Source: Batillaria attramentaria
Taxonomy: Eukaryota > Mollusca > Gastropoda > Batillariidae
Reading direction: 5' to 3'
DNA length: 64,000 nucleotides
Assembly (NCBI GenBank): GCA_018292915.2
Contig: JACVVK020000476.1
Span: 1 to 64,000, forward strand
In this document: piece by piece, positions 150 through 64,000 of the stretch
Position numbering within the stretch: the stretch's first letter is position 1
Layout of the letters: each line of letters begins with the position of its first letter
Translations under genes and position numbers: made by a program
Notes under the pieces: generated by a model
Told to the model about the DNA's origin: nothing
The model's database searches: none
What the model saw: the letters and a program-made list of their open reading frames with translations, nothing else

Positions 150-184
150 GTGTACCTTCAAGTATGGTTTCTCATACGAAAGTG
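150..184 (+). CDS. Gene A exon 2 (Cys-containing linker)
   Basis: A 35-nt exon between a TTTATCACAG acceptor and a GTAAGA donor, phase 2 in and 1 out. It encodes CTFKYGFSYES and has the same length and phase as exon 2 of genes B and D. It differs from the gene D exon at eight sites, all amino-acid changing. Confidence 0.7.
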
Positions 185-61200: not shown

Positions 61201-64000
61201 CGTGCACTCGCAGAGATGATACGGGATACAACAGACTACAACTCCAATACTTTATGAACAGAATATGCGCGGAGAACAAATTCATGAAAGAAGAAGAATC
61301 CAGAACGCTGTGCAGGGGGGCTGCTTACGTCAGATCTAGAACATTCCTCAACTTACTGGAAGGCTCGAAATCTCTCCAAGGTGACGTAATCTACTGACGT
61401 TACTGCACCAGCATGTTCTGGGATGGTCTAGAAATTATTTTGCATCGAAATGCAGTATCTTTTCGCAAGAGCCTCTACAACTTGACATGTGGAAAGCGGG
61501 AATTTCAGTGGGTTTCGTTTTTGCCACTGACTCACACTCAGAAGCATAATGCAAAGATCTTGGAAACATAAAGATAGTTCACTTACCTCCCTTTGAGGGA
61601 CAACGCGTAAGAGTTGTCTGCGCGCATTAGCGCGCATCCCGCAGATCTACGCAGTTGTTTGACCCAACCCTACACTAGCCGCCGTAAAACATTTTAAGAA
61701 AATAAACAAAAACGAAGATGTCAGCGACTGCCAGGTGGTCTCCCCCCCATATATTTCGCATGTGTTTTAGGCCTATGGAAAACATAAGTACTCTCAAAGT
61801 TCCGGAGGACGAAAGAAAGATCTAGTTTGGCTTTCACTGCTGTACGTAGGCTACGCAGTGCATTTCGTTCGATGTGTTCAAGTAAAACTAGTACGGAACA
61901 CAGAAAGATCGAATGTGCGAGAGATCCAAAGATGGACGCATCCGCTGAATACTTCCTGCTAACTCAGCATTAATCATATCTGCGACCGACGATCCAGCAG
62001 ATTCTATGTTGTGATATGGTTTTACAATGGTTAGAACGAAGTTCAGCCGGATGATTTTGTTCTCTGTGTGTGTGTGTGTGTGTGTGTGTGTTCTGAATTT
62101 AGATGCAGGTAGACGCTAGCACAATTTAAGTCACCGTGATTTGTAAAGTTGTCAGGGAAAAAAATTACGCTGTATCTGCGTCAGCCGCGTGTGTTTACTG
62201 TTAGTTTACACTGCATGCACACGTACCACTTGAGGTCTTTTTTTTTTTCTTTTTTTTTTTTTGGACAAGAAAGCGAAAAAAAAAATGTTTGTTTTTCAAC
62301 AGGAATACCAAAAGAAGTATTTCCCCGTTTATATTTGTCTGTTATTTGAACAATTCGGCGCAGAACACAATTGCATGCTTTTGTGATCGCTTTCCACTTT
62401 CCGCCATGCTGTCACTATAGGGGCCAGATCTAGGATGCGCGCTAATGCGGGCAGACAACTCTTCGCGTTGTCCCGCTATATGTCTCTCTTACGACACTCT
62501 CTGGAGCACAGAGTCTTTCAGTGGAAAGTACCTCTGTGCACAGTGGGGAAATGGCGCTCACTGCGCTACCGTGACGGGCCTAAATTGTCTCGGTGCTCTC
62601 AAACACAAGGTCGCGCACTATGTCATCCTTGACCAGCTTTGAACCCAGAGGGATCCTCAGTGGCGCAAGTGATTAGCAGGCTGTCTTCAGAGTGAAAGTA
62701 GGCGTGTTTCTGAATCAGAGACATACATAACCTGTCTCTGTCTGAATGGACAGATCTATTATTACATTCAGTCCTAGAGCACGGGTGTGTATGCTTTTGT
62801 AATCGTCTCTTATTCCACCACAAGGCAGGTACGTGATCGTCTGCACCGTGCAATAATACTTGCCTGTAGAGTGCAACACCCTTGCCTGTCAGAGTGCAAC
62901 CCCCTTGCCGTTTACTCACATCCTGTTGGATCAGTCTACCACGTAAACAGTGCCATCAAAGCGCAACAATAATTGTCCGCTGGCAAAGATTTTGCCCAAA
63001 CGAAAAGTGGTCGGATATTCAAGACTTCGTTTCAAATCGAATCATATGACACACAAGTCTCTGCTTTTCTAAAAAAAAATTCGCCATTTTTAAAAATGGC
63101 GCTGGGTGTAAGCAGTCACATTTTCACGCCCCGCCGAAAAGGGACTGCACTCTGGAGTCTACTCTTACGAGGGCAGGAGTGACGCGTCTTTCTGATTCCA
63201 AGGTCTTTGCATAATGTGTGTGTGTGTGTGTGTGTGTGTGTAGGGGGAGGGGGGGGGGTGCGTGCGTGCGCGCGCAAGCGCGCGTCTAAGGCGAGAGAGA
63301 GAGAGAGAGGGTCTCTTCTCCGATACCAGTAAGCAATCGTCTGTCAGTCAGGTCTGCGGGAAGTAACTCTGTCAAAGGGGAACGACTTTATTACAAGAAT
63401 TCATTCACCCATGTAGAACCTCGCATACGCCAACAAGTTGTGACGTCAACCAGCTAGGCGAGCTCACACGACCTCATGTGTTTGGGTTTTTGCAAGTGCA
63501 TAGAGGCACGATAAGGGTTTTCAGTACTTTCTTTATGTCAGCATGCTTGATGTCAGAGAGCTTGCGTTCCGGCGTGTGCGCGCGGGCTGCATACATGACA
63601 CAACGACTACGACTGTGACTACAGCAGGTCATTGAATGGAAACAACATATTGGGCTGGTGGCCATCTTGTTTTAAAATGAACTGCAACGATTGCCGTCAT
63701 AGGATTGGCTACTAGTCAACTGCTCCTAAGATTAAAAATAGCCCCTGCAAATAGCGACACATCGCGTTCATATACTGATTTTCGGGGTTGTTTCGTGAAC
63801 CTTTACATATTGTCAACTGAGAATAATGTATTGTATCGTGTAGATTCTGACTTTTCACTCAAAACTCTTCTTGCAGATTGTGTTTGAAGCCAGAAAAGTA
63901 TCTACAGGACACTGCGGATTTACTGGTAATGAAAACTATAATGAAGTTGAAATTGACGACATTGAGTTTGCTGACAATGGATTAATGACAACCACGACAC
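58133..64000 (+). CDS. Gene D: MAM-domain receptor, close duplicate of gene A (3' end outside window)
   Basis: In-window exons 58133-58212, 58588-58622, 59070-59162, 59400-59677 and 63877-64000, with the same phases as the other copies. Signal peptide contains TQCVVLTIFFLCTSVIS. The MAM domain is nearly that of gene A in exons 4 and 5 but very different in exons 2 and 3. Introns match gene A with a few percent difference from window base 1 (=58439). Intron 4 differs by a ~3.7-kb insert (about 59991-63666). Transmembrane and tail exons lie beyond the window, so ITAMs can only be presumed from gene A. Inferred role: cell-surface receptor. Confidence 0.72.
58588..58622 (+). CDS. Gene D exon 2 (Cys linker)
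   Basis: 35 nt, encodes CVFTFGDSYEN. Eight substitutions relative to gene A exon 2, all replacements, in nearly unchanged flanking introns. Confidence 0.7.
59070..59162 (+). CDS. Gene D exon 3 (MAM N-terminal part)
   Basis: Acceptor TTGTTCCAG, donor A|GTAACT. Encodes ANCDFQDNQCRWSNKRTN, IKWERS and NIYQR; one codon longer than in gene A. Confidence 0.72.
59400..59677 (+). CDS. Gene D exon 4 (MAM central part)
   Basis: Same acceptor ATAG and donor CGG|GTAAGG as gene A. Three nucleotides shorter around ARL; only a few substitutions otherwise, some silent. Confidence 0.71.
60219..60267. repeat. (TG)n microsatellite in the gene D intron insert
   Basis: Simple TG run after TGTATGGATG; the related repeat at 29585 has the same arrangement of palindrome, GACGTA...TGCGTCAT and then (TG)n at 29771-29819. 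Confidence 0.9.
61588..62482. mobile_element. Nested MITE-like element
   Basis: GGGACAACGCGTAAGAGTTG through GCATTAGCGCGCATCC to AGATCT at the left is repeated inverted at 62430-62482, arms about 50 bp. It lies inside the gene D intron insert. Confidence 0.65.
63877..64000 (+). CDS. Gene D exon 5, cut by the window edge
   Basis: Acceptor CTTCTTGCAG; IVFEARK to VEIDDIEF and on into TTT residues. One replacement (Val to Glu in DDIVF) relative to gene A. Confidence 0.7.
   Translation, partial: MVFEARKVSTGHCGFTGNENYNEVEIDDIEFADNGLMTTTT

Follow-up and report, generated by a model that had tools for sequence, protein, structure and literature searches.

Does a mollusc possess receptors in which a MAM ectodomain is joined to a tail with immunoreceptor tyrosine-based activation motifs (ITAMs)? 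The question is raised by one end of contig JACVVK020000476.1 (C476; 477,472 bases) of the gastropod Batillaria attramentaria (assembly GCA_018292915.2). The window analyzed here is positions 1-64000 of this contig, 64,000 nucleotides in all, in which an initial annotation had described four tandem receptor genes, A to D. This observation is confirmed and is larger than first noted, as the family extends well beyond four genes. Pfam, splice consistency, further members, and a Syk/ZAP-70-like gene in the same genome all support a predicted mollusc family in which MAM domains, a transmembrane helix, and ITAM tails are combined. We infer an immune or recognition role for it.

Exons were joined by six-frame reading, splice consensus, intron phases, and homology between copies. 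The array was surveyed by tblastn with family exons along C476 from its end to 264 kb, and genome-wide searches covered 863 contigs with 715,342,989 bases. Genes beyond the first five (A to E) are given as ordered exon matches rather than full splice models.

Exon plan and MAM ectodomain

The four plus-strand genes have one exon layout with matching intron phases, and splice sites and comparison between copies bear out the initial annotation on this point, except at exon 6 of A. The plan comprises a signal-peptide exon, a 35-nt cysteine exon (in A, B, and D), three MAM exons, a transmembrane exon, a juxtamembrane exon, and a long tail exon; a Thr/Ser-rich stalk is encoded by the third MAM exon (exon 4). 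The cysteine exon and the small juxtamembrane exon are additions to the earlier layout. Intron phases are 2,1,1,0,1,2,1 in B and D, and A and C agree with them at every visible exon, save exon 6 of A, which is without a good donor. The predicted transmembrane helix is free of charges, which would give a type I, single-pass protein. Gene B lies wholly inside the window and encodes 547 amino acids from ATG to stop. Gene D encodes 497 amino acids, with part of exon 4 and exons 5 to 7 in a further 2.2 kb outside the window, and its copy E is an open frame of 500 amino acids with matching phases. Gene A starts at the cysteine exon because the contig ends there; its signal-peptide exon would lie off the contig end.

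The signal peptide that had been described for all four genes was only partly upheld. Upstream signal-peptide exons exist in B and D; their donors are in phase 2, matching the exon that follows, and they are unchanged between copies (B/F 0/65, D/E 0/80, and D/G 0/80 sites). An in-place signal peptide before the first MAM exon was rejected: no ATG occurs between the stop and the exon in the frame of A, C, or D, and the hydrophobic stretch found there is an intron polypyrimidine tract. Near gene C, no signal-peptide exon with the right phase was found, and the sole candidate is distant and tentative.

The MAM assignment was checked with the Pfam model (PF00629, cut-off 26.4 bits) and lies above the cut-off in all four genes. 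Partial proteins scored 37.5 (A), 49.8 (C), and 43.9 bits (D), while B without its first MAM exon barely passed at 26.7 bits; the full proteins of B and D scored 35.3 and 41.1 bits. At E 0.001, MAM was the sole Pfam domain in full B and D, with no Ig, C-type lectin, CUB, phosphatase, or kinase domain detected. A protein database search with gene C scored 7998 candidates, none at E 0.1, and a PDB sequence search with the C MAM domain gave one irrelevant match (E 0.96). Other MAM exon arrays are present on contigs C462, C316, C146, C215, C686, and C26; many outscore the family in Pfam, and none of these contigs is among those with ITAM-tail matches. The exons read in the window are listed below.

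150..184 (+): A exon 1, 35-nt cysteine exon (CTFKYGFSYES), phase 2 to 1; splice sites; 8/35 changes relative to D, between introns at 2.5-3.4%
629..718 (+): A exon 2, MAM start, phase 1 to 1; splice sites, Pfam, comparison with D
931..1232 (+): A exon 3, MAM core, phase 1 to 0; splice sites, Pfam
1755..2031 (+): A exon 4, MAM end and Thr/Ser stalk, phase 0 to 1; splice sites, Pfam
2400..2559 (+): A exon 5, transmembrane helix, phase 1 to 2; homologous to B, C, D, and E
2707..2774 (+): A exon 6, end tentative; the D/E donor after the position matching 2756 is changed in A, and a weak in-frame GT lies at 2775
3592..4265 (+): A exon 7, tail with YEQF-x8-YTAL, YEQL-x8-YTAL, and three YELL-x8-YTAL; the later units lie in 87-bp tandem repeats
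8486..8550 (+): B signal-peptide exon, MLSLLFVVTVLAIAGCATSDS; unchanged in copy F
8893..8927 (+): B exon 1, 35-nt cysteine exon; spliced model
9663..9746 (+): B exon 2, MAM start; spliced model, comparison with F
11703..11980 (+): B exon 3, MAM core; spliced model, Pfam
12412..12685 (+): B exon 4, MAM end and stalk; spliced model
13082..13265 (+): B exon 5, transmembrane helix; spliced model
13501..13601 (+): B exon 6, juxtamembrane; spliced model
14365..14987 (+): B exon 7, class 2 tail; six Y..[LIV] motifs including DEDHYNVL and VEYSHL, none at ITAM spacing
29074..29162 (+): C signal-peptide exon, tentative, 14 kb upstream; sole candidate in 15.2-43.2 kb, with 18 such candidates in 260 kb
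43213..43259 (+): C exon 1, tentative; splice reading
43791..43892 (+): C exon 2, MAM start; splice sites, Pfam
44566..44834 (+): C exon 3, MAM core; splice sites, Pfam
51349..51544 (+): C exon 4, MAM end and stalk; splice sites
52043..52244 (+): C exon 5, transmembrane helix; splice sites
52851..52897 (+): C exon 6, juxtamembrane; splice sites
54184..54704 (+): C exon 7, tail; YEHL-x8-YTSL at 54492, followed by YEHV-x9-YTSL
58133..58212 (+): D signal-peptide exon, MQYFLPATQCVVLTIFFLCTSVISDN; 0/80 changes relative to E and G
58588..58622 (+): D exon 1, 35-nt cysteine exon; spliced model
59070..59162 (+): D exon 2, MAM start; spliced model, comparison with A
59379..59677 (+): D exon 3, MAM core; spliced model
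63877..64000 (+): D exon 4, truncated at position 64000; the gene extends to contig position 66242, and exons 5-7 hold three ITAM-type units

Other features of the window include two long interspersed nuclear element (LINE)-type reverse transcriptase frames, recognized by eye at 38755-41835 (-) and 47483-50832 (+), the second of which lies between exons 3 and 4 of C. Intron 3 of D holds a segment of about 3.6 kb (59996-63662) that is also present in E and absent from A and G, with ends that look by eye like short inverted repeats. Tandem repeat arrays occupy 25696-27246 (76-bp spacing) and 15317-15728 (57-bp spacing).

Tyrosine motifs of the tails

The ITAM consensus in a cytoplasmic tail is Y-x-x-L/I-x6-8-Y-x-x-L/I, and a strict ITAM is defined here as YxxL/I-x6-8-YxxL/I. 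Paired tyrosines at this spacing had been reported for A and C, and both tails contain them: A has four strict ITAMs and one YxxF form, and C has one strict ITAM and one x9/YxxV form. B has no strict ITAM. When the tails were shuffled (5000 times each), the share of shuffles with at least one strict ITAM was 0.14% for A (repeats collapsed) and 1.0% for C. The strict pattern has 18 matches in the six frames of the window; five belong to the tails of A and C, and the remaining 13 are for the most part Tyr-Ile simple repeats.

The unit of the ITAM-class tails can be written approximately as [DE]xYExL-x8-YTxL and is present one to five times. Spacing was counted in 19 tails, seven from C476 and 12 from contigs C522 and C130; three tails on C412 were left out, as they are perfect 12-residue repeats. 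The gap between successive Y..[LIVFM] motifs was 8 in 40 cases (25 distinct segments), 9 in five, 10 in two, 6 in one, and 7 in none, in a sample that is not independent because 12 of the tails came from an ITAM query and many are near-copies. Gaps between units were mostly 13-17. The tails of C, H, and M, which were recovered without the ITAM query, also show x8. Of the 27 distinct x8 units, 22 have an acidic residue at -1 or -2 of the first tyrosine and 26 have one at +1, compared to a tail background of 12.4% acidic residues.

Constraint on the motifs was assessed in eleven aligned tail pairs, which overlap and were chosen by hand, by comparing the tyrosine and +3 positions of one member with its other positions; key positions that face a gap were set aside. 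Key positions changed less often than others in K/C (1/8 vs 95/143, p 0.004), A/C (5/14 vs 101/149, p 0.04), A/K (3/10 vs 81/129, p 0.05), and, for the class 2 tails described below, B/G (3/12 vs 127/183, p 0.003), while L042/L049 gave 0/8 vs 23/73 (p 0.10).

Members beyond the window

Up to 264 kb, C476 has 12 loci with a MAM core, designated A to I, K, L, and M. A thirteenth match, J (140.4 kb), was dropped as poly-Val low complexity. Seven of the 12 loci have strict ITAM tails (A, C, D, E, K, H, and M), four have class 2 tails (B, F, G, and L), and member I has a transmembrane exon with no tyrosine-rich tail found in the 264 kb searched; the tails of H and M were found by motif density and are linked to their MAM exons by order alone. 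Strict ITAMs number four in A, two each in D, E, and K, and one each in C, H, and M. If YxxF and x9/YxxV forms are included, the units rise to five in A, two in C, three in D, and three in E, with two in K.

A genome search with 83 amino acids of the A repeats gave 35 matches at E 1, some of them several per place and some with internal stops. Fifteen places were read, ten on C522, two on C130, and three on C412; C131, C155, and C130:272686 were left out. At least one strict ITAM in the best frame is present in 11 of the 12 C522 and C130 tails, and one C522 gene that was read upstream has MAM exons and a transmembrane exon in order. The predicted tails of A, C, D, E, K, H, and M and these 11 carry the ITAM receptor motif, whereas those of B, G, and L do not.

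The three C412 places, on the minus strand at about 429.7, 527.9, and 578.0 kb (L053-L055), consist of perfect 12-residue repeats QNEPSGSDYNFL with YNFL every 12 residues, giving a chained YxxL-x8-YxxL. No MAM exon of the cluster family was matched in the 6 kb upstream of one of these frames (L056).

Similar ectodomains on different tails

The class 2 tails contain Y..[LIV] motifs, six in B, eight in G, and six in L, none of which is at ITAM spacing; some of the motifs have acidic residues around them. B has a hemITAM-like (half-ITAM-like) DEDHYNVL and G has DEDQYNAL and DDDQYNVL; VEYSHL/V, present in both, resembles an immunoreceptor tyrosine-based inhibitory motif (ITIM). Both labels denote likeness to the respective consensus only. 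In the L tail, neither type was found by the patterns used. In the pair B and F, exons 5-7 changed at 15/908 sites compared to 69/992 in introns 5-6 (p 8e-9); the transmembrane and tail end is thus under constraint, although the tail of F carries indels.

From signal peptide to exon 4, G matches A, D, and E, with a MAM core 86% identical to A and 83% to D at the protein level. The G transmembrane exon, by contrast, shows 37-38% changed sites, and the G tail is of class 2. K, with an ITAM tail, and L, with a class 2 tail, are sisters in the MAM-core tree (100/100) at 70% identity. In this tree of 11 rows the tail label needs three changes, at least two of which are forced by well-supported branches; the tree was used for close pairs only, because its branches are long and few forks are supported. 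In addition, one C522 gene is 95-97% identical to member I up to C522:374723 and 96-98% identical to gene A from 374721. Its MAM core is 94% identical to that of I, and the joint falls in intron 4 of A. Homology between D and G also stops in intron 4. Closely similar predicted ectodomains are found on different tails within one cluster (A/D/E vs G, K vs L, and I vs the C522 gene), and the two putative cassette joints that can be placed are both in intron 4.

Divergence of the N-terminal exons

In the pair A and D, 26/125 sites are changed in exons 1 and 2 compared to 25/805 in the upstream region and introns 1-2 (p 3e-11), with a nonsynonymous divergence (dN) of 0.28 and a synonymous divergence (dS) of 0.13; against all introns read (65/1331), p is 6e-9. 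Exons 3 and 4 (12/423) show no excess over the upstream and intron 1-2 baseline (p 0.86). A similar pattern is seen between D and E, in which exons 1 and 2 have 8/128 changes compared to 12/1168 in the flanks (p 3e-4), all eight alter the amino acid, and exon 3 has 0/299. For B and F, the counts are 26/362 in exons 2 and 3 and 62/2529 in introns 0-2 (p 2e-5), and exon 1 is unchanged.

The first part of intron 3 in A/D has 31/312 changed sites, which exons 1 and 2 exceed at p 0.004 only. Two observations count against simple positive selection. In exons 2 and 3 of B/F, dS is raised as well as dN (0.117 and 0.066), and exon 1 is identical in A and G. Some of the divergence may thus be due to gene conversion. 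The fast exons are best read as the result of selection combined with conversion among the copies, and pure positive selection is not concluded.

SH2 signaling genes in the genome

A search with the human SYK tandem-SH2 region gave five matches, two on C4, two on C42, and one on C697. The C4 matches are in order, 48% and 39% identical, while those on C42 and C697 are to the C-SH2 only. One C4 exon covers the start of the N-SH2, and the other the linker into the start of the C-SH2. When the two were joined, 11 of 11 PDB matches at E 1e-8 or better were SYK or ZAP-70, and the N-SH2 piece was the best stretch. Exons for a predicted Syk/ZAP-70-like tandem SH2 are present in the genome, known from the SH2 part only. 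SHP-2 SH2 exons are located on C121. An SH2 exon pair on C131 was rejected as Syk, since no SYK or ZAP-70 was among the best 60 of its 158 PDB matches. C42:2322766-2324401 holds three SH2 domains close together, two of which were read; by eye, these C42 SH2 exons look Csk-like.

One published study (PMC5978004) reports that Syk/Zap70 homologues occur only in invertebrates with CARD-CC/Bcl10 and places molluscs among the lineages with a Bcl10-dependent paracaspase. The same study infers that receptors with ITAMs act upstream of Syk and CARD-Bcl10 in invertebrates (PMC5978004).

Interpretation and alternatives

Judged from the predicted proteins, it is rather probable that the ITAM-class members are single-chain activating receptors read by Syk, within a paired-receptor cluster. 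The fast N-terminal part of the MAM ectodomain would bind a variable ligand, such as a pathogen, a parasite, or a self/non-self marker. Receptor clustering would allow a Src-family kinase to phosphorylate both tyrosines of a unit, and the tandem SH2 of Syk would dock on the phosphorylated pair and so trigger the cell, which is probably a haemocyte. Signaling by class 2 receptors of similar ectodomain would be different, in a single-YxxL or SHP-2-type manner, and the two kinds would form activating/modulating pairs. Because like ectodomains carry different tails, snails may have built their own paired immune-type receptors. A more elaborate version is somewhat less likely than not: the cluster would be a paired immune-receptor complex of molluscs, cassettes for the MAM ectodomain and for ITAM or hemITAM/ITIM-like signaling would be shuffled at intron 4, recognition exons would diversify under selection, ITAM number would be tuned by the 87-bp repeat, and haplotypes would differ in the tail borne by each ectodomain.

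Several results weigh against reading the family as Syk-coupled activating receptors. Degenerate units occur, with x9, x10, or a lost Leu or Tyr. Close-copy tail pairs (five with 0 changes at 8-22 key positions and one with 1/10) have no power (p 0.38-1), and between K and its C522 copy the tail dN is about equal to dS (0.059 and 0.055). The top-scoring match of the SYK search lies on C42 rather than C4, and is Csk-like by eye. Moreover, the YxxL motifs also match AP-2 sorting signals. Endocytic or sorting receptors, in which each YxxL would be an AP-2/AP-1 signal and repeats would raise uptake avidity with no ITAM signaling, are also in keeping with a Y-x-x-hydrophobic pattern and with the single, spaced motifs of the class 2 tails (six in B, eight in G, and six in L). 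A sorting signal does not require paired motifs at a set distance, but a gap of 8 dominates and 7 is absent in the 19 tails; the first tyrosine is flanked by acidic residues, and the genome contains Syk-like tandem SH2 exons. We consider a purely sorting function unlikely. It is likewise rather unlikely, in our view, that these are adhesion or gamete/self recognition receptors with phosphotyrosine tails, whose MAM exons would track a conspecific partner instead of serving defense. MAM is an adhesion module, and fast recognition exons suit reproduction as much as immunity. ITAM/ITIM or hemITAM tails are described on the allorecognition receptors of Hydractinia and Botryllus in PMC12065747. The present data do not separate the two roles, but the number of copies, the mixing of tails, and the pairs are reminiscent of clusters of immune receptors.

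A partly decayed tandem array or an assembly product, with haplotype mixing or conversion and few working genes, would leave traces of the kind seen at several loci. Exon 6 of A has lost the GT donor kept in D and E (window 2757-2758), with only a weak in-frame GT 18 nt on, and some family members may be dead or misassembled. The tail of F (L023, C476:93047-93708) has two one-base indels relative to B, which may reflect a pseudogene or an assembly error. Several C522 tails look partial or frame-broken, with the same possible consequence. In addition, C522 aligns collinearly at its end with the region of C476 near 165 kb (94-97% identity, and 85% in one more segment), and C522 may represent another, divergent haplotype of C476 instead of extra genes; the assembly is described as highly heterozygous and purged of haplotigs in its report (PMC10382545). 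These points also tell against a working receptor family, but B, D, and E are complete open frames, the B/F tail exons are conserved relative to introns, and G and L are on the same contig as their partners. Decay or misassembly as the general explanation is very improbable to us.

Relation to known receptors

The Alr receptors of Hydractinia have Ig-like ectodomains. Like the snail family, they and the fester co-receptors (FcoR) of Botryllus form receptor clusters in invertebrates, and their tails are of ITAM/ITIM type in Alr and of hemITAM/ITIM type in FcoR according to PMC12065747. FcoR ectodomains consist of Ig and sushi domains (PMC12065747), whereas in the snail family only MAM is above the cut-off; the snail ITAM units, moreover, occur in up to five copies. 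Vertebrate paired receptors (KIR, SIRP, and PILR) resemble the snail family in having similar ectodomains with different tails in one cluster. They differ in having Ig in place of MAM and in activating members that borrow DAP12, where the predicted snail activating tails have ITAMs of their own, and the two groups show no sequence relation. Drosophila Draper with the kinase Shark is likewise a single-chain invertebrate receptor with an ITAM-like tail; it differs in its EGF-type ectodomain and as a single gene. Shark and ITAM-dependent signals are mentioned in PMC5978004.

In another snail, Biomphalaria GRC and PTC2 are clustered, fast-diverging single-pass transmembrane proteins tied to parasite resistance, according to PMC7494358; the main text of that paper has no matches for ITAM, MAM, or tyrosine. 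RPTP kappa/mu, neuropilin, and ALK share an extracellular MAM in a single-pass protein, and differ from snail B and D, which are without phosphatase, kinase, Ig, or CUB domains by Pfam. In excerpts of the open-licence papers found by joining MAM with ITAM, no MAM-ITAM receptor was named, which is not proof of absence; their topics were semaphorin 3A, neuropilin, and crustacean virus receptors. Excerpts of open-licence papers on MAM with gastropod immunity or with mollusc gene family expansion named none either, and MAM appeared in an enrichment table.

The cluster offers concrete snail candidates for the ITAM-bearing receptors upstream of Syk/CARD-Bcl10 that are discussed in PMC5978004. If the more elaborate version is true, the family would supply a missing upstream ITAM receptor of the molluscan Syk-Bcl10-paracaspase pathway. 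If the family works as interpreted here, it would present an ITAM code on a MAM scaffold, multiplied by a tandem repeat and organized like vertebrate paired receptors, and would bear on the question of whether ITAM signaling is an old module to which new ectodomains are repeatedly joined. The family gives direct tests for haemocyte recognition in gastropods.

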